From Lachnospiraceae bacterium (lineage in GTDB: Bacteria; Bacillota; Clostridia; Lachnospirales; Lachnospiraceae), in assembly GCA_014239155.1 (NCBI GenBank), contig JAAZZQ010000078.1:51407-115406 (forward strand): a DNA stretch of 64,000 nt, given 5' to 3'. A program made the translations under genes and the position numbers. This document shows positions 2,820 through 13,378 of this stretch, piece by piece (the first letter of the stretch is position 1; each line of letters opens with the position of its first letter). The notes beneath the pieces were generated by a model that saw nothing but the letters and a program-made list of their open reading frames with translations, was not told where the DNA came from and ran no database searches.

Positions 2820-2969
2820 AAAATTAACTCACCTCCAATAATTTAAATGGGTTGTAAGCAATCCATAGAAATCGCTCAAAAAGTACTTTTGATTATAGCA
2901 CACGGCTTTTCATTTGTACAGACAAAAGAAGATATTTTCGGAACTTCTGTTTGCTATAAAACAAAAAAT

Positions 2970-3012
2970 AAAGCGCTGGCAACAGAATCTTTACTTGTTC
3001 CCAGCGTTCTTT
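2970..3012 (-). terminator. Putative intrinsic terminator of the 11.7-3.1 kb minus-strand operon
   Basis: Minus strand: AACGCTGGgAACAagtaaagattcTGTTgCCAGCGC followed by TTTATTTTTTGTTTT. Confidence 0.65.
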
Positions 3013-3148
3013 CCTACCTATAAATTTTTAGTCTATTATCCCCTTTTTCACAGATTCCTTTTTTACAATTGTTCTTCTCTTTTCCTTAACCATGAGAATT
3101 AAATAATTGTTACAGCTTTAAAACCCAAAAATGCTTTTGTAATCACTT

Positions 3149-3523
3149 TTATAAATAATCATCTTGAGACACAATTTTTTCTTCTGGATCAAGACATACT
3201 GCAATTCCTTCATCTTCATTATCTCTATCATCAAATAGCAAAGCATAAGATCCGTCTCTATTCATCAACAATGTTCTAGGAATAAACTGTTCTTGTGCAA
3301 AATCTGAATACTCTTTTAACATTTTTTCAACACAATTCATTTTTGTTTCCTCTGAACTTATAAAATCAATGTAGGCATTTTCCTGTTCTTCTGTAATACC
3401 ATCCTCTTCAAAGTATGCATGTATTTTTACTGTAACTACATAAGATTGCCCAAATAATACAATACTCTTAGTAGTCTTCCATCCTACATTAAAGTCAATA
3501 TCTCCAAATACATTATGTATCAT
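3149..3523 (-). CDS. Putative immunity protein of the upstream nuclease toxin (DUF6985/DUF2004-like)
   Basis: 124 aa acidic protein, MIHNVFGDIDFNVGWKTTKSIVLFGQSYVVTVKIHAYFEEDGITEEQENAYIDFISS...; pattern recalls polymorphic-toxin immunity families; immediately downstream of the toxin ORF. Confidence 0.55.
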   Translation of the reverse strand: MIHNVFGDIDFNVGWKTTKSIVLFGQSYVVTVKIHAYFEEDGITEEQENAYIDFISSEETKMNCVEKMLKEYSDFAQEQFIPRTLLMNRDGSYALLFDDRDNEDEGIAVCLDPEEKIVSQDDYL

Positions 3524-3613
3524 ATTTTTTCATCATTCCTTTCGCTTTATTCAGAACATAAACAAACTACAAAACATACTTTCGCACTTCACGATGCGAA
3601 TTTTCCTTCACAC

Positions 3614-4183
3614 TTATGCGCCTTTCTTTGCTTCTGATATTCCGCCGCTATGAGACATATTATTATGTATAACGCTAGGCACTAGTTGCATTGTTTTCAT
3701 GTCTTTGCACTCATGCCAAGTATACGCATTCTCTTTTCTCCACTTTTTAACTGTGTCCGGTGAACAGTGCTGTTGTTTTGCCAACGCAATATCTGCCTTA
3801 TCAAAATTGTCTGCTCTATTTTCACAAAAATCTTTTATTTTAACTGTTTCCTTACTAATACGGCTAAAATCAGGTTCCCCATTTCTATATTCAATACCAT
3901 CTATGCCAAACTTCTTTAAAATTTCACCCCAATTTTTTCCATCGGGATTCGCTTTCCCGGGTATATAGTCTTTGTCTGGGCACCATTTAGAATCGCCTCG
4001 TTCACCGGTCCATTTTCCATTTTCAACAGGACAGCACTTGAACTTATCATATATAAACGCTAATGATTTATCTGCCAAAACTATATATTTATCAGCAACA
4101 GATGATTCAGCTTTTTTGCCCAATGGTGATTCGACAAATCTATTCATTTGCGATTCCTTAACATCATTAAAATTTCCTATCAT
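3614..4183 (-). CDS. HNH/Endonuclease VII superfamily (WHH-like) nuclease toxin domain protein
   Basis: 189 aa; C-terminal YTWHECKDMKTMQLVPSVIHNNMSHSGGISEAKKG matches the WHH/LHH toxin-nuclease signature as I know it; preceded by GKWTGERGDSKWCP...WGEILKKFGIDGIEYRNGEPDFS typical of polymorphic toxin C-termini; SD GGAG; overlaps the upstream ORF by 17 nt. Confidence 0.75.
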   Translation of the reverse strand: MIGNFNDVKESQMNRFVESPLGKKAESSVADKYIVLADKSLAFIYDKFKCCPVENGKWTGERGDSKWCPDKDYIPGKANPDGKNWGEILKKFGIDGIEYRNGEPDFSRISKETVKIKDFCENRADNFDKADIALAKQQHCSPDTVKKWRKENAYTWHECKDMKTMQLVPSVIHNNMSHSGGISEAKKGA

Positions 4184-7100
4184 ACTTTTCTCTCCTCTCT
4201 ACAACAGATTGAATCCAATTGAGGTATATTTTTTCTCTTGTTTCATTTTCATCTTGTTGTATACTCATATCCTTCATAAAGCATTGGCTTAAGGCAATTG
4301 TTAACTGTTTGGTAGGAACCTTAATAATCTGCGCAATAATTCTGTTTAACATATCTGTAAGTTCATCATTATCCATCGCTGTCAAAGCACTATTCTCAAC
4401 ACGCGCCCGAACGCCTAATATATCCGTTATACGTCTTGAAAGTTTTCGGAAATTTTCATCTTTCCAAATAACAAGAGAGTTCATTTCTTTATATTCCGCT
4501 ATTTGTTCTTCCACAAATTCATAGTTTGATGATGATAGTCCCAACACGTCAAGTCCATTTTCAATACATTCAATAGAAAACGCTAAATGTTCGTTCACTC
4601 TCCCTTGAATCAAAAAATTAATTAGCTGTTCTTGTATATCTATATAATTTTCCCTAGCGCCATCGCCTGTAAAATCATATGCTTTTTCCATAATATTACA
4701 TTTGCTTACCTGAACAAGCACTGGCTCAACCCAGTCATTTTGATATACAGCCGCTACACCTCTTTTCAGCTTTGATAATTCTTCTATCTGTTCTTCATCC
4801 AGACCAGCCGCATATCCAACTAATTCCCGATCACTCCTATCTGGCAATCTTAAAATAATCTTTGTATTTGTATTCCTGATAACAGATATATCCAGCAAAC
4901 CTGGTGACTGATCAGCTATAATGAAACCCTCTCCATAAGTTCTCATTTCAGCAATTGAGTTTGCAAGTAACTCCACCGATTTCCCCAACAAATTGGCGTT
5001 TTCTGTAGATTGCTCCATAGAAGTTCTTTTTAAGAGATTATGTGCCTCCTCTAACACAGTAAGGTGTGATAAAGGACTGTTAATTTTGCCAGATGACATG
5101 CGATATTCATTTAATTTTAATACCAATAATCCCATTATCAGTGATTTCGTTTCCGTCGAACCAACACGACTTAAATCAACAATAACATTCTTATCAAATA
5201 AATCTCGCTCACTTAAATCATCCTTGCAAAAAATTAATCCATTTAATCCATTCGTCAACGATCTTACACGTGTTAACAGAGCTCCAGAGTAATCACCTTT
5301 ACTGTCGGAAGAATACTTTGACTCATTTATTACAACTTCTATCTGTTCGAGTAAATCGGCAAAATTCGGATATTTATTACCTTTTGCATTTTCGGAAGTT
5401 CCTAAATTCCATCCTGCAGCAACATACGCTTTCTCCATTGACTCTTTTAATATTGCAGGCATCGCTGCATACATCGGCCAGCAGACATTGAAAATTTCCA
5501 CCAATCTATCTAAATGCTCTAGCACATGAATATCTTCAGAAAACTTAAAAGGATTAATCCTTAATAAATTCATTTTCTTTGGGTTTGTGCCATACACACT
5601 AACATCAGCAAACTGTCCGAAAATATTTTTATATTCACCTTTGGCTGGCTCAACAACAAGAAATGGAATGTTATATACACTTCTTAGTTGATTTAATATT
5701 TGATAAACAGTGTTGCTTTTGCCAGAACCTGTAGAACCTGTCACAAATGTATGCATTGTTAAGGAATTACAGTCCAGATGGACTTCTGTTTCCGTTTCTT
5801 TTCCCATGCTAAACACTTTTCCAAGACAAAAATCTTTGCTGTGCAGTTTCTGATTGTACCTGACAACTTCCTTGCCAAAATCTGCATGTTCTATAACAGG
5901 AAAACCACATACTGATTTCCTAGGCAGCCCCATATGAATTGCCAATTCATTGCTGCTAACCAAAGAAGCCGCTGTTATGGGAACTGATATTGTGTCAGAT
6001 GCATATTTAAAAACTGGATGAATAAAATTAGTAATATACTCACGTAAAACAGGCAATTGGTTCTGATTATTTCTTCCCCAAAAGTTTATTGCCGAAGTTT
6101 CGACTCCTGATTTTTCCCCTTTCATAAGCGCTTTATACGTTCCTGCTGCCATTTCCGCTGTTTCCTGACTATCCGAAAGAAAGTATGCTGCACATTCCCA
6201 CATTCCTATACTTTCACATTCCTCCATACGTTTCAATTGAAGATCAATTCTTTCTAAAACATTCACTAACGACTTATTCTGCAAAGTCAATTGCAGATTA
6301 TCCGAAGAACCAGTTGTGATACCTTTTGTTCGAGTTTCGTTTTCTGTTGTACTTTCATTTTCTGTATGCGTTTCACCATATGATGTGGAATTATTCTCTG
6401 AATATTCTTCCGTTGTTGAAGTTCCTTTTGTTATACTTTTGGGATTAAATGCATTAAGCCCTATATGCCCGACAGTTATTGCCCCAGCAACAGCAATACT
6501 AGCTCCCCCTGTTAACGGAGCTGTCACAAGACTTGCAACCCCCAACGCAGCCGTTCCAAGGCTTTTGGCCAAAGCTCCTAAAGAATCTGTCTTTGTCATT
6601 CCATGATTTTCACTTGTACTCTTTGAATAATTCTTTCCAGTCTGTGTTGATGTATTTGTTGCGTGCGAAGATCCTATTGTCTTTCCATGTGAAAAAGCAT
6701 CTGACACACTTAATGCTGTGCTTGTCCCATAAGATATCTGCATATTTGCAAAAGGAGACAATTGTGTGTAAATGGTTTCATAAGCCTGCCGGGTTTGCTC
6801 CAATTGCTCCATTGGTGTACTCTTAGCCAAAACAACTGCCGTATATTTTTGCCCCTGCATTGCAAGTGCCAATTTTTCAAGACCTTGAATAAATGTTTCA
6901 TTATCCTTAAAATCTTTATCTTTGTTTTTTGCAACACAAGACACACTTGCAATATTTTTTGTAGCTATATTGTTTAAAAAATCCTCAGCTTTTGGGTCAA
7001 GCAAATCTTCGGTTTTTACACCCGGAAATTGCCCTGTCAATGCATTTTTCAAAGTATCTTTCAAAGATTTTGTTGTCCGCTTGTCATCCAAAGAACGTAC

Positions 7101-7487
7101 ACCCATATAAAAATCAGTTTTTTGCCCATCACTGTCTACAATAATAAATACACTGCAATTTAGGTTTTGAACCGCATTAAAAACAGAAGCAAACTTATAG
7201 GTTGAATACTCATTCTTTTGATATACCATTTCTGTAATTTTAAATAAACGGATATCTCCGATATTCTTCAAATTTTTATCTAATGGAACAATCTCTAAAT
7301 CCGTTAGTTTTTGCAAATAATTTTTAAGTACAATGTCATCGACAAGTTTACTTGCTTCCTCTAAACCATTTTGAAACGTATAATAATTTGGTACTTTGCT
7401 TTTGAACTGATTTGCAGAAATAACTTCCTGATTGCTTTTTATAGCAGGCATATTATTCTCTCTACCTAGAATAACTGTTTCACTCAT
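4167..7487 (-). CDS. HerA/DUF87-type P-loop ATPase with internal Ser/Thr-rich and hydrophobic insertion
   Basis: 1106 aa; Walker A VTGSTGSGKSNTVYQIL, Walker B LTVLEEAHNLL, IIADQSPGLLDISVIRNTNTKIILRLPDRSDRELVG motor signature; N-terminal hydrophobic segment between two Ser/Thr/Asn-rich stretches. Confidence 0.8.
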   Translation of the reverse strand: MSETVILGRENNMPAIKSNQEVISANQFKSKVPNYYTFQNGLEEASKLVDDIVLKNYLQKLTDLEIVPLDKNLKNIGDIRLFKITEMVYQKNEYSTYKFASVFNAVQNLNCSVFIIVDSDGQKTDFYMGVRSLDDKRTTKSLKDTLKNALTGQFPGVKTEDLLDPKAEDFLNNIATKNIASVSCVAKNKDKDFKDNETFIQGLEKLALAMQGQKYTAVVLAKSTPMEQLEQTRQAYETIYTQLSPFANMQISYGTSTALSVSDAFSHGKTIGSSHATNTSTQTGKNYSKSTSENHGMTKTDSLGALAKSLGTAALGVASLVTAPLTGGASIAVAGAITVGHIGLNAFNPKSITKGTSTTEEYSENNSTSYGETHTENESTTENETRTKGITTGSSDNLQLTLQNKSLVNVLERIDLQLKRMEECESIGMWECAAYFLSDSQETAEMAAGTYKALMKGEKSGVETSAINFWGRNNQNQLPVLREYITNFIHPVFKYASDTISVPITAASLVSSNELAIHMGLPRKSVCGFPVIEHADFGKEVVRYNQKLHSKDFCLGKVFSMGKETETEVHLDCNSLTMHTFVTGSTGSGKSNTVYQILNQLRSVYNIPFLVVEPAKGEYKNIFGQFADVSVYGTNPKKMNLLRINPFKFSEDIHVLEHLDRLVEIFNVCWPMYAAMPAILKESMEKAYVAAGWNLGTSENAKGNKYPNFADLLEQIEVVINESKYSSDSKGDYSGALLTRVRSLTNGLNGLIFCKDDLSERDLFDKNVIVDLSRVGSTETKSLIMGLLVLKLNEYRMSSGKINSPLSHLTVLEEAHNLLKRTSMEQSTENANLLGKSVELLANSIAEMRTYGEGFIIADQSPGLLDISVIRNTNTKIILRLPDRSDRELVGYAAGLDEEQIEELSKLKRGVAAVYQNDWVEPVLVQVSKCNIMEKAYDFTGDGARENYIDIQEQLINFLIQGRVNEHLAFSIECIENGLDVLGLSSSNYEFVEEQIAEYKEMNSLVIWKDENFRKLSRRITDILGVRARVENSALTAMDNDELTDMLNRIIAQIIKVPTKQLTIALSQCFMKDMSIQQDENETREKIYLNWIQSVVERREKYDRKF

Positions 7488-8047
7488 TTATTGCCTCCAT
7501 TCAATGCAGCAACTGTTCCTCCTCCGACTACTGCTCCAACAATTACACCACCGACAATTGTAACTCCTGCTATTGATGCAGCAACACCTCCAAATACCCC
7601 ACCTGCTATGGCACCAGTAGCGACTTTTGGTCCTAAATAGCTGCCGTCTAATTGATCCTGCTGTTTTTTCTCTTGATAACTCATATGCTCGCGCTCTTTC
7701 GGTGTATATTTTGTTCCTTCATTACCAGCATTGCTATAAGAGGCTTTTGTTACAGGATACAAATAACGTACAATTTCTTTGACATGCGCAATTCGTTGTT
7801 TTGAAAAATTTCTAATTAATTGAACCATTTGTTTGTCCATATAATTACTATCCCAATAATTCTTATTTTCTTCAAATGCCCTGCCATCATGAACATCATA
7901 TAAACCATGCAATGCTGCCGCCGCCTTTTCCATCTCATAAAACTCCCTAAAAGACGGATCCACAAGAAGGCTGTCTTTCATCATAATACGGACTCGTCGT
8001 GTATTTCCGGCAGTTACTGCTTCGTAGAATGCATTTGTTAACGCCAT
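7484..8047 (-). CDS. Small protein with C-terminal glycine-zipper hydrophobic segment
   Basis: 187 aa; C-terminus ATGAIAGGVFGGVAASIAGVTIVGGVIVGAVVGGGTVAALNGGNK; 4-nt overlap (ATGA) with the downstream ATPase. Confidence 0.75.
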   Translation of the reverse strand: MALTNAFYEAVTAGNTRRVRIMMKDSLLVDPSFREFYEMEKAAAALHGLYDVHDGRAFEENKNYWDSNYMDKQMVQLIRNFSKQRIAHVKEIVRYLYPVTKASYSNAGNEGTKYTPKEREHMSYQEKKQQDQLDGSYLGPKVATGAIAGGVFGGVAASIAGVTIVGGVIVGAVVGGGTVAALNGGNK

Positions 8048-8059
8048 TTTATTCTCCTC

Positions 8060-10354
8060 CTATATCTCAAGTATTGATTCAACCTCAGCTTTAATGGTTT
8101 CTAACCATACCAATTTGCGTTCTGACTCTCTAATACGTTCTTCTGCCTTATCCTTGTCTTTTGCATAACTTTCTAATTCGGACAGTTTTTCTTTTAAAAT
8201 ACCATCTAGTCGTTTAAACTCCTTTTCAAAACGCTTTGCAATACGATTTGACTGCTTTAAGGCATAAGCACAAGCATTGTCTCCATTGTCATATACGGAC
8301 TCTTGTATAGGCGCCAAAAATTCCTGTGCTAATTCCGAAGCATCTACATACTTAACAGTTTTATACTTTGTACGATAATGCCCTTTTTCCTGAAACCACG
8401 TCCAAGGTTTATACCACTTCTTGTCTGTATTCTCAACCCACTCTTTGCCATCTTCAACCTGCTTTGACTGAATAAGATTTTTAATTGAAAAATCATCTGC
8501 CATCACTACACTGCTGCCCATAAGTTTTAATGGCTCAATACTGATTCCCGACAAACCTTTTAGATCAATCTCCTCCGTTAACGAAGCCAACTTGTTTCTA
8601 TATTCGTTTAAAAGATCATTTCCAGTCTTCTCAAGGCTATTTTTAATAAGCTCATCCATATCTGCCTGAAAATCAGGCTCAAGTTTTTTGGCAAATTTCT
8701 CTAATCTGGCAACTTCGTCCTCTGCATCATCCACATCTAATTCTTCCCCACGCAGTTTATCAATACGTTTTCCGATTTTTTTCTGATACTTTTGAACAAT
8801 TTTATCTATCACATCTTTTGCCTCGTCATTTACCTTGACCACTGCATCTTCAATAGCACCTTTAAATTTTTTGGCAGCGCTGACATCATCTACTTTTTTT
8901 CTAATATTCGCAATTTGCGCTGCTATCTTCTCACTCTCATCTCTGTTTTGAGCAAGTTCACGTTTAGTCTCTTCAAAGCATCCGACTTCATCCAACTTGT
9001 GCATAAAAGTATCAACAATATTCTTAATTTTTGCAGTCTTCGCATATTTCTGTACATATTGGCGAATCGCTGCTTCTATTGATATAATACCTGTATGTAT
9101 TAAAGCCTCCGCATTTGCATCCTGCTTTTCTTTGGCTTCTGAAAGCTGGTTATTAATTTCCCCGCGGATACTAGAAGGAAGCGGCGCATAATTTTCAAAG
9201 TGCAATGTCTCATTTCTATTTAGTTTTCGTACTTTCATTTCTGTTTCATCTATGGTATCCTCATCAATTTCTGCACCACCAGAAATCAAACGAACATTAA
9301 GTGCCGGAAGTGCCGCCGCCGGAAATAAGTTTGGATTATAAATCTTATGACTTTCCAAATATGTACGAACACGTTCTAGGGTCTGTCCAACATCACCATC
9401 TTCTTTTTTTCTGTCATCCATTTTATTTACAACGAAGATAAACCTGTCCTTAGACTGTTTTCCACCAACTTTCATACTCTCTGCAACACGCTCCAATAAC
9501 CGATTATCATCATCGGAGCCAAAAGTGCCTTCCATAATATATAAAACCAACGATTTTGAAGATTTACTTAAAAATTCTGTCTGCACTTTTTTATGATCTG
9601 TATTTCTAGCGTTATTCGGTCCCGGCGTATCAATTAATACCAAAGAAACATCTTCCGATGATACAAATGGAATATTTCCATTTACTTTTATAACGGATAC
9701 ATTCTCGTTGTCATTTAAACGCTCCATAATTGGGTAAGTTAATTCTTTATGAGATTCAATCATATGGTTCTCTTTATCATAAACTTCTGCCTGCCATGAT
9801 TTTGTTTCCTTTGTTGTATCCTTAATTCTTGTGATAATGGCAGTACATGCCTCTTGTTTTGACGGCATAAGCTTACAGCCAAGCATAGAATTAATCAGTG
9901 TTGATTTCCCTGCGCTCATGGTTGCTACAACACATACCTCAAAGTCACTGCTTTTTGCAAGCCGAAAAGCATTTAATATTTCCTCATCTCTCAGCTCATC
10001 AAATGGTCCCTGTTGAATTTTCTCAAATACCTGATCAATAAGCCCCTCTTTGTCAGATGTTTCTTTTGCAGCGATTCGTTCGAGCGCTGCTGTTAATTTT
10101 CCTTTTTCATAAGCAATAGTAAATACTTCTGTTAAATCCTCATAATCTAAAAGAGTGCCATGAAATGTAATCTCAAACTCTCTGTCATTATACTCGTCAA
10201 TAAGAAGATCCGGCAACTCTTCGACCCATTCCTGAAATCTTGAGCCAGGAGTGATTTTTTCTCCAAGTTTACTATTCTGTGCTAATTTTTTGCCCTCAAC
10301 AGTCACCTCTGTCTGCAAATTATAAGGGTTGTATTTGATAAATACCTTTTTCAT
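8060..10354 (-). CDS. Dynamin-family GTPase (large)
   Basis: 764 aa; G1 VVATMSAGKSTLINSMLG, G3 LVLIDTPGPNNARN, G4 FVVNKMDD; long predicted coiled-coil C-terminus; aromatic KKWYKPWTWFQEKGHY segment. Confidence 0.85.
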   Translation of the reverse strand: MKKVFIKYNPYNLQTEVTVEGKKLAQNSKLGEKITPGSRFQEWVEELPDLLIDEYNDREFEITFHGTLLDYEDLTEVFTIAYEKGKLTAALERIAAKETSDKEGLIDQVFEKIQQGPFDELRDEEILNAFRLAKSSDFEVCVVATMSAGKSTLINSMLGCKLMPSKQEACTAIITRIKDTTKETKSWQAEVYDKENHMIESHKELTYPIMERLNDNENVSVIKVNGNIPFVSSEDVSLVLIDTPGPNNARNTDHKKVQTEFLSKSSKSLVLYIMEGTFGSDDDNRLLERVAESMKVGGKQSKDRFIFVVNKMDDRKKEDGDVGQTLERVRTYLESHKIYNPNLFPAAALPALNVRLISGGAEIDEDTIDETEMKVRKLNRNETLHFENYAPLPSSIRGEINNQLSEAKEKQDANAEALIHTGIISIEAAIRQYVQKYAKTAKIKNIVDTFMHKLDEVGCFEETKRELAQNRDESEKIAAQIANIRKKVDDVSAAKKFKGAIEDAVVKVNDEAKDVIDKIVQKYQKKIGKRIDKLRGEELDVDDAEDEVARLEKFAKKLEPDFQADMDELIKNSLEKTGNDLLNEYRNKLASLTEEIDLKGLSGISIEPLKLMGSSVVMADDFSIKNLIQSKQVEDGKEWVENTDKKWYKPWTWFQEKGHYRTKYKTVKYVDASELAQEFLAPIQESVYDNGDNACAYALKQSNRIAKRFEKEFKRLDGILKEKLSELESYAKDKDKAEERIRESERKLVWLETIKAEVESILEI

Positions 10355-11655
10355 ATTGTTCCTCCAAATAATATTTTTTCAAGACCGTACAGCCCACATC
10401 TTTTACTCATCTCTGTTGCTTCGCCATCACCAGACTCTATCTGTATTCCATTGTAGTATTTTGAAAGATCATACACAGGTTTCCTAAACTTTTTCATATA
10501 TAAAGAATACGCGTCCAATTCATCATCCGTTAATTTATCACCATAAGATTTTCTTTTTATTAACAGTGCAAAATATGCTGATATCGGGCAAATAATTGGA
10601 TTTTGAAATCCAAGCATGGCTAAATCATTTTTTACTTTGTTCAAACTTATTGATATATTATCATCTGCTATATGAAAATCATCCAATTTGTTCAATATAA
10701 AAATAATCTTATCTTTCTGGACATTTTCAGAAATCCATTTTAAATGTGCAATTTCTTCCTCTGTCCCAAGTTTATTTGCATTTAAAATGTACAACACTTT
10801 TTCATATTGTTCCTTCTTAAGTGCCTTTCGGGAAATTCTTCCATGATTTCGATTGATTGCCGAGTTTACCCCCGGCGTATCAATGATGCATAAGCGATAC
10901 TTTATTTCATCCATCCCTCTAAAAAACGAAGCGATATTTGTTTCATATTCCCATGAAATGTCTTCCAAATCATCAGAGGATGCATTCATTGTATAAGTAT
11001 CGTTTTTCAAGTGAATACAACCATCTTCAAATGGCTTGTTGTACAAGTAACATTTATTGCCAGTGCAAACCTCTTGTGATGTCCTAGTCAACGGCTTCCC
11101 TATCAGCGCATTTATAAGTGTTGATTTTCCTGCACTCATATTTGCCGTCACAATATACCTTTGCATCGGCTTTTTTAAAAAACTATAATTTTTTCTAAAT
11201 TGCAAAATCAGTTCTTTCGCAAAAGCTATAGATATACAGTCCACTTCATCACCACCCTTTAAGGCTTGAAGCAGGATACCAAACTTTTTCCTTTGAGGCT
11301 TTGTCATAAACTTTTGCATTTCCTCTGACACTTGTTCTATCAAAGAATCATCCATAAGAATTAGCGCGATATCACACATAAGCCAGTATCTGTATCTTCT
11401 TTGTGACCGATTATTTTTAATTATACTATGTACTATATCTTCTATTATTGAATCCTTTTCTCCAATCACCTTATTCTTTAGAAACTTTTTCCTGTATTGT
11501 TCCAAACGGGAAATAGCATACTCATCTGCAACTTTATCTTTCACGAAGTATTCTAAAGCCAAATAGTATTGCTTTTTTGATTTCGTTCTAGCATTACTCA
11601 TTGGGTGTTGCGCAAGAGCAACTGATGTTGTAAATCTTACTGTTTTGTCTATCAT
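10351..11655 (-). CDS. Dynamin-family GTPase (small)
   Basis: 434 aa; G1 VTANMSAGKSTLINALIG, G3 LCIIDTPGVNSAINRNHG, G4 IFILNKLDDF; 4-nt overlap with the next ORF. Start uncertain: no clear SD before 11655; alternative ATG at 11601 (MSNARTK...) overlaps the stop of a small upstream ORF. Confidence 0.8.
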   Translation of the reverse strand: MIDKTVRFTTSVALAQHPMSNARTKSKKQYYLALEYFVKDKVADEYAISRLEQYRKKFLKNKVIGEKDSIIEDIVHSIIKNNRSQRRYRYWLMCDIALILMDDSLIEQVSEEMQKFMTKPQRKKFGILLQALKGGDEVDCISIAFAKELILQFRKNYSFLKKPMQRYIVTANMSAGKSTLINALIGKPLTRTSQEVCTGNKCYLYNKPFEDGCIHLKNDTYTMNASSDDLEDISWEYETNIASFFRGMDEIKYRLCIIDTPGVNSAINRNHGRISRKALKKEQYEKVLYILNANKLGTEEEIAHLKWISENVQKDKIIFILNKLDDFHIADDNISISLNKVKNDLAMLGFQNPIICPISAYFALLIKRKSYGDKLTDDELDAYSLYMKKFRKPVYDLSKYYNGIQIESGDGEATEMSKRCGLYGLEKILFGGTI

Positions 11656-11713
11656 TAATTTTTACATTTGCCACTTTTGCTTTCTTTTTCAGTACCAATA
11701 TATTGTTTGACAA
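11594..11713 (-). CDS. Candidate 39-aa leader/small ORF overlapping the start of the small dynamin gene
   Basis: Minus strand AGGAGGG-attacat-TTG, near-perfect SD with 7-nt spacing; reads (M)SNNILVLKKKAKVANVKINDRQNSKIYNISCSCATPNE*; stop in ATGAGTAA configuration with an internal ATG of the GTPase frame. Confidence 0.4.
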   Translation of the reverse strand: MSNNILVLKKKAKVANVKINDRQNSKIYNISCSCATPNE

Positions 11714-11770
11714 ATGTAATCCCTCCTATCTATTTATTTTGTCATATCTTATTCATATTACGCGATACTT

Positions 11771-11960
11771 CTAAACCGTCTTGTTCAACGATGTCAGCTT
11801 ACTCAGAAATGCCTTATACTGATGCAACTCTACATAATGCAACCAATAGACTTTCTCATCATAATTATAAACCAACTGGTGGTTATTCACGGCTTCTGTT
11901 TTGGTATTTTCCAGATATATATCTGGCACAACTTGTCTTGTTTAAATGCACTTCTTTCAT
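11771..11960 (-). pseudogene. Probable frameshifted small gene of unknown function
   Basis: SD GAGGAGG before ATG at 11960: MKEVHLNKT.. then a +1 frame change gives RQVVPDIYLENTKTEAVNNHQLVYNYDEKVYWLHYVELHQYKAFLSKLTSLNKTV* ending at 11771; 190 nt = 63 codons + 1 nt. Confidence 0.4.
11911..11926. promoter_or_regulatory. Perfect 16-bp palindrome CCAGATATATATCTGG in divergent intergenic region
   Basis: Directly read; lies between the XRE regulator and the dynamin/HerA operon, but also inside the frameshifted remnant. Confidence 0.3.
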
Positions 11961-12048
11961 ATATTATTTCTTCCTCCTCTAATTCTCACCCCCCTTCCAT
12001 AAGTACATCCTATTCCCATCAAAAAACTTCTCAAATTTTGTCTGATTT

Positions 12049-12057
12049 TGATATAAT
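12049..12057 (+). promoter_or_regulatory. Candidate extended -10 promoter for the XRE regulator
   Basis: TGaTATAAT (TGnTATAAT) upstream of the + strand XRE gene; -35 weak. Confidence 0.35.
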
Positions 12058-12096
12058 AGGCATTTTATCACTTTTTAATAAAAAAATCAAACCTTT

Positions 12097-12108
12097 TAAG
12101 TATACTTA
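12097..12108. promoter_or_regulatory. Perfect 12-bp palindrome TAAGTATACTTA, candidate XRE operator
   Basis: Read directly; downstream of the candidate -10 and upstream of the XRE start. Confidence 0.35.
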
Positions 12109-12186
12109 TATTAAAAAATATTACCTTTAACGGCATTATGAGATACTGTTTTTCATCATAAACTATATGTTGGAGGTTGAAAATAT

Positions 12187-12531
12187 ATGGATGATAACAC
12201 TTTAACAGTTATTGGGTCGCGGATAGCAGAAATACGCCGCCACCATAAAATCACACAAGAATCTTTAGCGGATTCGCTGGGGGTCAGCCCCAAACATATC
12301 AGTCATGTTGAAAACGCCACTTCCAGTTTTTCCCTAAAGAATCTGATTCAGTTTTGTATGCTCTTTCATTGTAGTCTGGATTACATTATCTTTGGGGAAC
12401 AGGATAATGAAGCACTCTCAAAACTGCCTACTGAAATCATAAAGTTACTAAATACCGGAACCATTGAAGAAATCGAACGCCTGAATCGCTATCTGCAAAT
12501 CTATATTGAACTCCAAAACAGGCAGGACTGA
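12187..12531 (+). CDS. XRE-family (HTH_3) transcriptional regulator
   Basis: 114 aa; IGSRIAEIRRHHKITQESLADSLGVSPKHISHVENATSSFSLKNLIQFCMLF; SD TTGGAGG. Confidence 0.9.
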   Translation: MDDNTLTVIGSRIAEIRRHHKITQESLADSLGVSPKHISHVENATSSFSLKNLIQFCMLFHCSLDYIIFGEQDNEALSKLPTEIIKLLNTGTIEEIERLNRYLQIYIELQNRQD

Positions 12532-12844
12532 CCTCTTTCTTTGAGTGCGATTCTGTCTGTTTTTGTTCTTTTGTCAACTATATACGGTTCTCCTTTCTTT
12601 TATCTTTTATTATAATCCTTGGGGATAGACATATACTGTCCATGTTAAAAACTTTTTCTATTTTTTGTAAATTTTTATTACTTTTTATTTCCAATTTGTG
12701 TTAAGAAATTATGGCATCTATTTCAACTCTTATTACACACAAAAAATTTTTACATATTCTCTTTTCATTTCCATAAAATAGTATTAAAATAGAACTATCT
12801 TTAAATACTATATAAATACAACTGCAACAGGAAAGGAGAACCAA

Positions 12845-13378
12845 ATGGCTAAAAAATTTAGCAAACTTGTTTTATTCAGTGCCCTCGCCGGTGCTGCAGC
12901 TGCGGGAACTTATTATTATCTTCACAAGAAGACAAACGCTTCCGAAGATGAACTTGAAGACGTTGATTATTTTGACGATTTTGACGAGGATCTTGACGAC
13001 GAAGATTTCTCCTCTGACTCCGCAAACTCCACAGGTAGCAAAAACCGTCCATATGTATCAATTGATATAGACAATGCGAAAGAAATTATCGGTGAGAAAG
13101 TAATTGAGACACTTGATAAGACAAAAGAAAAACTCGAACATTTTAATGTGTCCGAGAAAATTGACAAAGCAAAAGAAATCATCGGTGAGATGACTTCCCC
13201 CTCTGTTGAACCTGTCTATACACAGGTAAATATGTCTGCTGCGCCAATTTCTGACACAACAGCTTCCGAGGATATCCAATCTGGCTCTGTCTCTGTAACG
13301 TATGCGGAGTCTTCTGACCCAGAGAATACTTCCGAAGAATTTTTTGACGATTCAAACACAGAATCCACAGAATCATAA
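12845..13378 (+). CDS. Acidic membrane-anchored protein of unknown function
   Basis: 177 aa; N-terminal hydrophobic segment LVLFSALAGAAAAGTYYYLHKK followed by Asp/Glu-rich region; SD GGAAAGGAG. Confidence 0.75.
   Translation: MAKKFSKLVLFSALAGAAAAGTYYYLHKKTNASEDELEDVDYFDDFDEDLDDEDFSSDSANSTGSKNRPYVSIDIDNAKEIIGEKVIETLDKTKEKLEHFNVSEKIDKAKEIIGEMTSPSVEPVYTQVNMSAAPISDTTASEDIQSGSVSVTYAESSDPENTSEEFFDDSNTESTES

Follow-up and report, generated by a model that had tools for sequence, protein, structure and literature searches.

The window analyzed here is a 64,000-nucleotide (nt) stretch from a Lachnospiraceae bacterium, a gut bacterium (contig JAAZZQ010000078.1), and all coordinates below refer to the whole window. 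It holds an island with an operon of six minus-strand open reading frames (ORFs), which encode two dynamin-like GTPases (GTP1 and GTP2), a membrane protein (GLYZ), a HerA/FtsK-superfamily ATPase (HERA), a toxin, and an immunity protein. An earlier note on this DNA had taken the six ORFs for one coupled functional unit of a HerA-type motor, dynamin-like GTPases, a membrane protein, and a nuclease toxin with its immunity protein. Our analysis bears out that view, and all six ORFs are present with the lengths it gave (434, 764, 187, 1106, 189, and 124 amino acids [aa]). The features of the locus are as follows.

2846..12741, no strand: the whole island, between uvrB and a 177-aa gene; missing in the closest congener
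12187..12531, plus: XRE-family regulator, 114 aa, inside the island and divergent to the operon
10351..11655, minus: GTP1, dynamin-family GTPase, 434 aa (ORF and Pfam)
8060..10354, minus: GTP2, dynamin-like GTPase, 764 aa (ORF and Pfam, fold model)
7484..8047, minus: GLYZ, 187 aa, membrane protein (ORF, hydrophobicity)
4167..7487, minus: HERA, HerA/FtsK-superfamily ATPase, 1106 aa (ORF and Pfam)
6288..6743, minus: HERA residues 249-400, Ser/Thr-rich with a hydrophobic stretch (sequence pattern, alignment)
4698..5825, minus: HERA ATPase domain, residues ~555-930 (Pfam, structure matches)
3614..4183, minus: toxin, WHH/Colicin-DNase, 189 aa (ORF and Pfam)
4046..4183, minus: N-terminal tag of the toxin, ~46 aa (profile common to cargo of other toxin classes)
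3620..3895, minus: WHH/Colicin-DNase toxin domain (Pfam)
3149..3523, minus: immunity protein, DUF6985-type, 124 aa (Pfam, toxin-immunity clustering)
3581..3600, minus: small hairpin in the 90-nt gap between toxin and immunity gene (hairpin scan)
2962..3006 (about), minus: terminator-like hairpin and T run at the operon end (read from the sequence)

From 5' to 3', the junctions of the operon are a 4-nt overlap, 12 nt, a 4-nt overlap, a 17-nt overlap, and 90 nt. These junctions, the terminator-like hairpin, and the divergent XRE regulator are all as the earlier note had described them. The hairpin has the stem CGCTGG/CCAGCG, and its 21-nt loop places it outside the listing of our hairpin scan, which had a loop limit of 8 nt. 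The translations of both GTPases and of the ATPase have intact catalytic motifs.

A genome-wide scan with the 764-aa GTP2 returned 29 loci. The same HerA-like ATPase follows the GTPase pair in 27 of the 27 loci whose contigs run on, with a recognizable GLYZ-like gene between them in 25. Because this synteny is kept down to ~32 to 50% protein identity, the neighborhood is not a matter of chance. The earlier note had made its reading depend on the GTPases and ATPase being syntenic with the nuclease in relatives. The machine genes are almost always syntenic with each other, and the toxin slot is always filled, but by differing toxins.

The start of the gene that follows HERA is typically only a few bases from the HERA stop codon. 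Pfam assigned 27 of 74 such genes to Colicin-DNase/WHH, 9 to Endonuclea_NS_2, 8 to LHH, 2 to Gln_amidase, and 1 to a putative metallopeptidase, and the next gene again (n = 63) was of the DUF6985 type in 19 cases, SUKH in 17, and YezG-like in 1, all of them folds known from immunity proteins. The HNH nuclease can no longer be seen as a defining component, as had been proposed, since the same slot can hold a deamidase, a metallopeptidase, or any of several classes of nuclease. Nor is there a fixed set of six genes; cargo varies, the GTPases are sometimes replaced, and GTPase-less relatives exist. Clustering of toxins against immunity proteins is near one-to-one and gives at least eight pair types (WHH-A/I1, WHH-B/I2, NucA/I3, LHH/I4, a third WHH group/I5, REase-like/I6, Gln_amidase/I7, and C8/I8). 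On the HERA tree, we count at least 26 changes of the pair, an approximate figure because the tree was built quickly and has long branches. Some loci carry tandem cargo, each with its own immunity gene: Gln_amidase then WHH (L065) or Gln_amidase then NucA (L066), in related machine clades and with a tag of the clade's own, and WHH (L054, L076, and L082) or NucA (L081) then an HExxH metallopeptidase. The latter four loci share a different tag, T..E...FW...F, which is least clear in L054. One orphan immunity gene, of the I8 type, occurs apart from any C8 toxin (L018:9446-9907).

In the window, the toxin matches WHH and Colicin-DNase (Pfam, 2.3e-15 and 1e-13), and the 124-aa protein matches DUF6985 at 6e-5, just short of the family cut-off; no second copy of the gene for the latter was found in the window's genome. 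The toxin had been described as an orphan without a delivery domain, but its first ~46 residues form a delivery-type tag with the motif F-x-[ED]-S-P-L-G-K ... [YA]-D-K-[PSA]-[LI]. It has no strongly hydrophobic Sec-type segment (KD19 maximum, 0.7). A profile of WHH-A cargo, built on its first ~46 residues and tested against 3,100 shuffles, matches NucA-, REase-, LHH-, and metallopeptidase-type cargo above all shuffles (P ≤ 0.0003, the test floor). Across 75 cargos, tag similarity follows HERA distance (permutation P = 0.003). Pairs with different toxins have significantly similar tags in 97% of cases at a HERA distance of <0.5 and in 0 to 1% at >2.5, while pairs of the same toxin class at a HERA distance of >1.5 do so in only 0 to 7%. 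Since tag similarity tracks HERA whatever the toxin, the tag goes with the machine and each toxin with its immunity gene, which is the pattern that defines polymorphic toxin systems. One N-terminal part is thus found on unrelated toxin domains, toxin-specific immunity lies directly downstream, and replacement is frequent; we consider it highly likely that this is a polymorphic system of tag and swappable toxins. We infer that the tag physically contacts HERA. The tag receptor could equally be GTP2 or GLYZ, because these are inherited jointly with HERA.

The same type of WHH toxin domain forms the C terminus of an RHS-repeat polymorphic toxin in the window's genome (L141, G000:C2:847-945 and around). 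A candidate immunity gene lies downstream of it, and the two proteins lend themselves to comparing how one toxin domain travels by two routes of delivery.

Both GTPases match Dynamin_N (Pfam E-values for the two matches, 2.9e-14 and 2.2e-17). GTP1 has the P-loop ANMSAGKST, DTPG, and NKLD, and its membership in the dynamin superfamily is based on Pfam and motifs only, whereas GTP2 combines the Dynamin_N match and intact motifs with a long helical stalk. The predicted GTP2 model is a dynamin (mean predicted local distance difference test [pLDDT] score, 78), with SynDLP, IniA, BDLP, and the Cj-DLP pair as the nearest folds. It consists of an N-terminal alpha/beta domain (residues 1-100), the GTPase, the stalk, and a paddle-like region, modeled at low confidence, in which WYKPWTW is near-invariant; the catalytic motifs are invariant in the alignment of relatives. 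The first 100 residues of GTP2 recur on proteins without a recognizable P-loop (L042, L044, L048, L057, L058, L085-L087, and L090; P ~0.0005, the test floor), which makes the GTPase one form of a broader kind of partner. Of these, L042, L044, L048, L057, L085-L087, and L090 represent a second machine type, in which the GTPase-less protein keeping the GTP2 N-terminal domain adjoins HERA. An obligate association of GTPase and ATPase was rejected, as GTPase presence changes at least 8 times on the HERA tree, some of which changes may reflect cut contigs. Some copies have signs of decay: a locus of the same genus (L051, in G196) has an in-frame stop in GTP2, and GTP1 is split in L016.

GLYZ matches no Pfam family, and no solved structural relative of its N-terminal domain was found. 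The protein, which is duplicated in some relatives, has a conserved N-terminal domain and a C-terminal hydrophobic Gly-rich segment (KD19 = 2.25), a layout that is the one predicted for a tail-anchored membrane protein. HERA is a DUF87/HerA protein (Pfam, 1.4e-13) with intact Walker A (TGSTGSGKS) and EEAH motifs, its catalytic motifs are invariant in the alignment of relatives, and its ATPase half has structural matches to HerA and VirB4. We interpreted only the ATPase part of the HERA model, which has a mean pLDDT of 55 and an unusable N-terminal half. Residues 249-400, Ser/Thr-rich with low-confidence beta strands around a Gly/Ala-rich hydrophobic stretch (~300-345), are found in 24 of 24 aligned relatives and are possibly a membrane-inserting element. 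Distant HERA relatives (L091, L094, L046, L100, and L079) have other partners, namely, GAP1-N2/M proteins, a DUF2357 protein, an Hsp70-like gene, and, in L079, small GTPases; HERA-type ATPases may serve several conflict systems.

We favor the interpretation that the locus is a polymorphic system of toxins and immunity proteins that has a deployment machine of its own, a reading that we regard as reasonably likely. The constant machine, which in the type found in the window is GTP1-GTP2-GLYZ-HERA, is followed by tagged cargo with a swappable toxin domain and then by the matching immunity gene. In the mechanism we propose, GLYZ would anchor a HerA-type hexamer to the membrane, perhaps aided by the hexamer's own Ser/Thr-rich hydrophobic insert, and the hexamer would recognize the tag and thread the toxin. 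The dynamin pair would remodel or fuse membrane, allowing the toxin to exit the cell and pass into a neighbor, where the WHH nuclease would cut nucleic acid, the 124-aa protein protecting the producer and its kin. In support of this reading, we also count the synteny, the membrane segment of GLYZ, the dynamin fold, the toxin without a Sec-type segment, and carriage on conjugative plasmids. Interbacterial competition fits because of the cargo classes, the immunity folds, the tandem cargo, the orphan immunity gene of L018, and the RHS toxin with the same WHH domain. Export of the toxin to other cells by the machine seems somewhat probable. We would give about even chances to a new form of secretion or cell-to-cell delivery in which a HerA-type hexamer, as both tag receptor and motor, joins a dynamin pair and a membrane anchor in carrying toxins through one or two membranes, the system having been spread by plasmids over Bacillota, Spirochaetota, Pseudomonadota, and Planctomycetota. 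That the GTPases act through membrane fusion or vesiculation is a more tentative proposal.

Several observations weigh against this interpretation. We infer export and the target cell from sequence, the N-terminal model of HERA is of low confidence, and the idea that this region inserts into membrane comes from a sequence pattern. Dynamins are dispensable for some members, as the GTPase-less relatives show, and a single orphan immunity gene was found, whereas competition systems often have arrays. Finally, WYL domains occur in 32 of the 38 upstream genes scanned in relatives, a place taken by the XRE gene in the window, and WYL regulators are common in defense loci (PMC4012209).

This last point leads to the principal rival, an intracellular anti-phage or anti-plasmid role, in which the HerA ATPase would hold the tagged toxin, the GTPases would sense membrane or replication stress, and infection would free the toxin (abortive infection), with the immunity protein as antitoxin. 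Such a role is kept in play by the WYL control, by defense genes in some flanks (DndB, AbiLi, and PDC families), and by DynA, a dynamin that confers phage resistance (PMC8844932). In addition, HerA pairs with nucleases or NADases in defense complexes (PDB matches), and distant HERA relatives adjoin GAP1-N2/M proteins of proposed conflict systems (PMC7159879). However, the enrichment of the flanks is modest and the control uneven: PADLOC families number 60 against 13 in the control, with several per protein, mostly single members, and housekeeping matches in the control. HerA-based defense systems (SIR2-HerA, DUF4297-HerA, and mads) resemble this one in that a HerA-fold hexameric ATPase adjoins an effector enzyme, but here the effector can be exchanged, bears a tag, and comes with an immunity partner, and there are GTPases besides. 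We rejected these systems as a match, the scores (54.9 and 35.8 bits) falling far short of the respective cut-offs (800 and 850) and their known partners not being in the operon. Toxin-specific SUKH and DUF6985 immunity, the frequent exchange of toxins, cargo that includes a deamidase and a metallopeptidase, the tandem loci, and the orphan immunity gene suit competition better, and we judge the intracellular role unlikely. Of the two options that the earlier note had offered, our results therefore favor the toxin-deployment machine over a nuclease restrained for abortive infection.

A much less probable alternative is an addiction or stabilization module, in which toxin and immunity protein keep a plasmid or island in place, while the machine serves only to regulate the toxin's activity or to move DNA. 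Carriage on conjugative plasmids and as an island would agree with it, but a 9-kb machine and a toxin tag exceed the needs of addiction, the machine stays while its cargo swaps, and most loci of the genome scan are on records not titled as plasmids. That these are unrelated neighbors adjacent by accident, as generic family annotations by themselves might allow, is refuted by gene order and overlaps conserved across several phyla.

The earlier note knew of no named system with this composition, and we likewise found only superfamily-level matches in PADLOC and NCBIfam and no joint description of bacterial dynamins and polymorphic toxins among the open-licence PMC papers searched; dynamin is absent from the text of a 2012 survey of trafficking modes (PMC3482391). 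Polymorphic toxin systems, above all the type VII secretion system (T7SS; LXG/WXG, with the FtsK/HerA-type ATPase EssC/YueA), have in common with the present system a constant N-terminal trafficking part, swappable C-terminal toxins (WHH, LHH, NucA, REase-type, and deamidase), adjacent immunity, and an FtsK/HerA-superfamily motor (PMC3482391 and PMC9436818). The T7SS was nevertheless rejected, as scans of cargo (Pfam) and HERA gave no WXG, LXG, LDXD, or EssC-type family and the conserved module has no Ess-type partners; instead there are one HerA module, Ser/Thr-rich in its N-terminal part, a pair of dynamins, GLYZ, and a short tag unlike known ones. DO-GTPase/GAP1 conflict systems (Kaur et al. 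2020) also have a constant GTPase core with variable effectors (PMC7159879). That paper does not mention dynamin, names HerA once, and reports no effector-export features for most of its systems. They too were rejected, both proteins being absent from the window set and GAP1 occurring only beside distant HERA relatives.

Among dynamins, LeoA has been linked to toxin release (PMC4159319). LeoA and LeoBC of enterotoxigenic Escherichia coli, and Eleos, resemble our system in that two bacterial dynamins are encoded jointly, but the match is at the superfamily level only (LeoBC, 1e-6; LeoA, 1.8e-6), and Eleos (LeoA plus LeoBC) was rejected on its weak matches confined to the GTPase region. LeoABC is not known to come with an immunity gene, a HerA ATPase, or a toxin that bears a tag. 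Campylobacter Cj-DLP1/2 is likewise a heterotypic bacterial dynamin pair (5oxf is among the best GTP2 folds), and we know of no toxin cargo or HerA partner for it.

The effector side thus passes the tests for polymorphic toxins and is of a known kind, while the machine would be a new kind of secretion system if export is true. Both the deployment machine and the tag, as a trafficking part, are provisionally new, being undescribed in the open-licence PMC papers searched. Polymorphic toxins are sorted by their route of travel, and this set appears to add one, with a HerA-type motor, membrane-remodeling dynamins, and a short tag specific to the machine. It probably represents a novel means by which bacteria direct toxins at their competitors. 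A defined partner and cargo would also be assigned to bacterial dynamin pairs, most of which have no clear role. A rule for prediction follows as well: where a tagged protein is encoded behind this ATPase, a toxin is to be expected, with its antidote encoded by the gene that comes next.

Complete relatives were found on plasmids of Lactococcus cremoris (typed as conjugative), E. coli TW10590 (IncI, conjugative), and Treponema saccharophilum, and the copy on the dairy Lactococcus plasmid makes direct testing possible. The cluster of pF27B (L040) comprises the dynamins, two GLYZ genes, the ATPase, an HNH toxin, and an immunity gene. The E. coli form occurs in 1 of 5,426 E. coli genomes; there (L041, pTW10590_133) it adjoins an etpB-annotated gene and an IS66 transposase. 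The GTP2 scan also matched Paenibacillus, Veillonella, a Planctomycetota metagenome-assembled genome, and a betaproteobacterial record. HERA-family ATPases are present in 44 of 392 genomes of the order versus 6 of 398 drawn across the phylum, and GTP2 in 5 of 250 genomes of the family. A mainly phage-borne system was rejected, since viral contigs yielded no GTP2 relative and only 8 loci, some weak, with the HERA query.

The locus is an island because homology to the congener L103 (G994), limited to 2548-2845 and 12742-13353, ends at 2845 and restarts at 12742. L103 has 205 bp in its place, and no more than 336 bp separate its uvrB (97.8% protein identity over the first 90 residues) from its 177-aa flanking gene (86%). 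The island ends have no convincing repeats or tRNA. Within it, the small hairpin at 3581-3600 might conceivably be an attenuator or processing site. The 500-bp leader between the XRE gene and GTP1 (11656-12186) contains short ORFs, one of which begins at a TTG and overlaps the GTP1 start in another frame.

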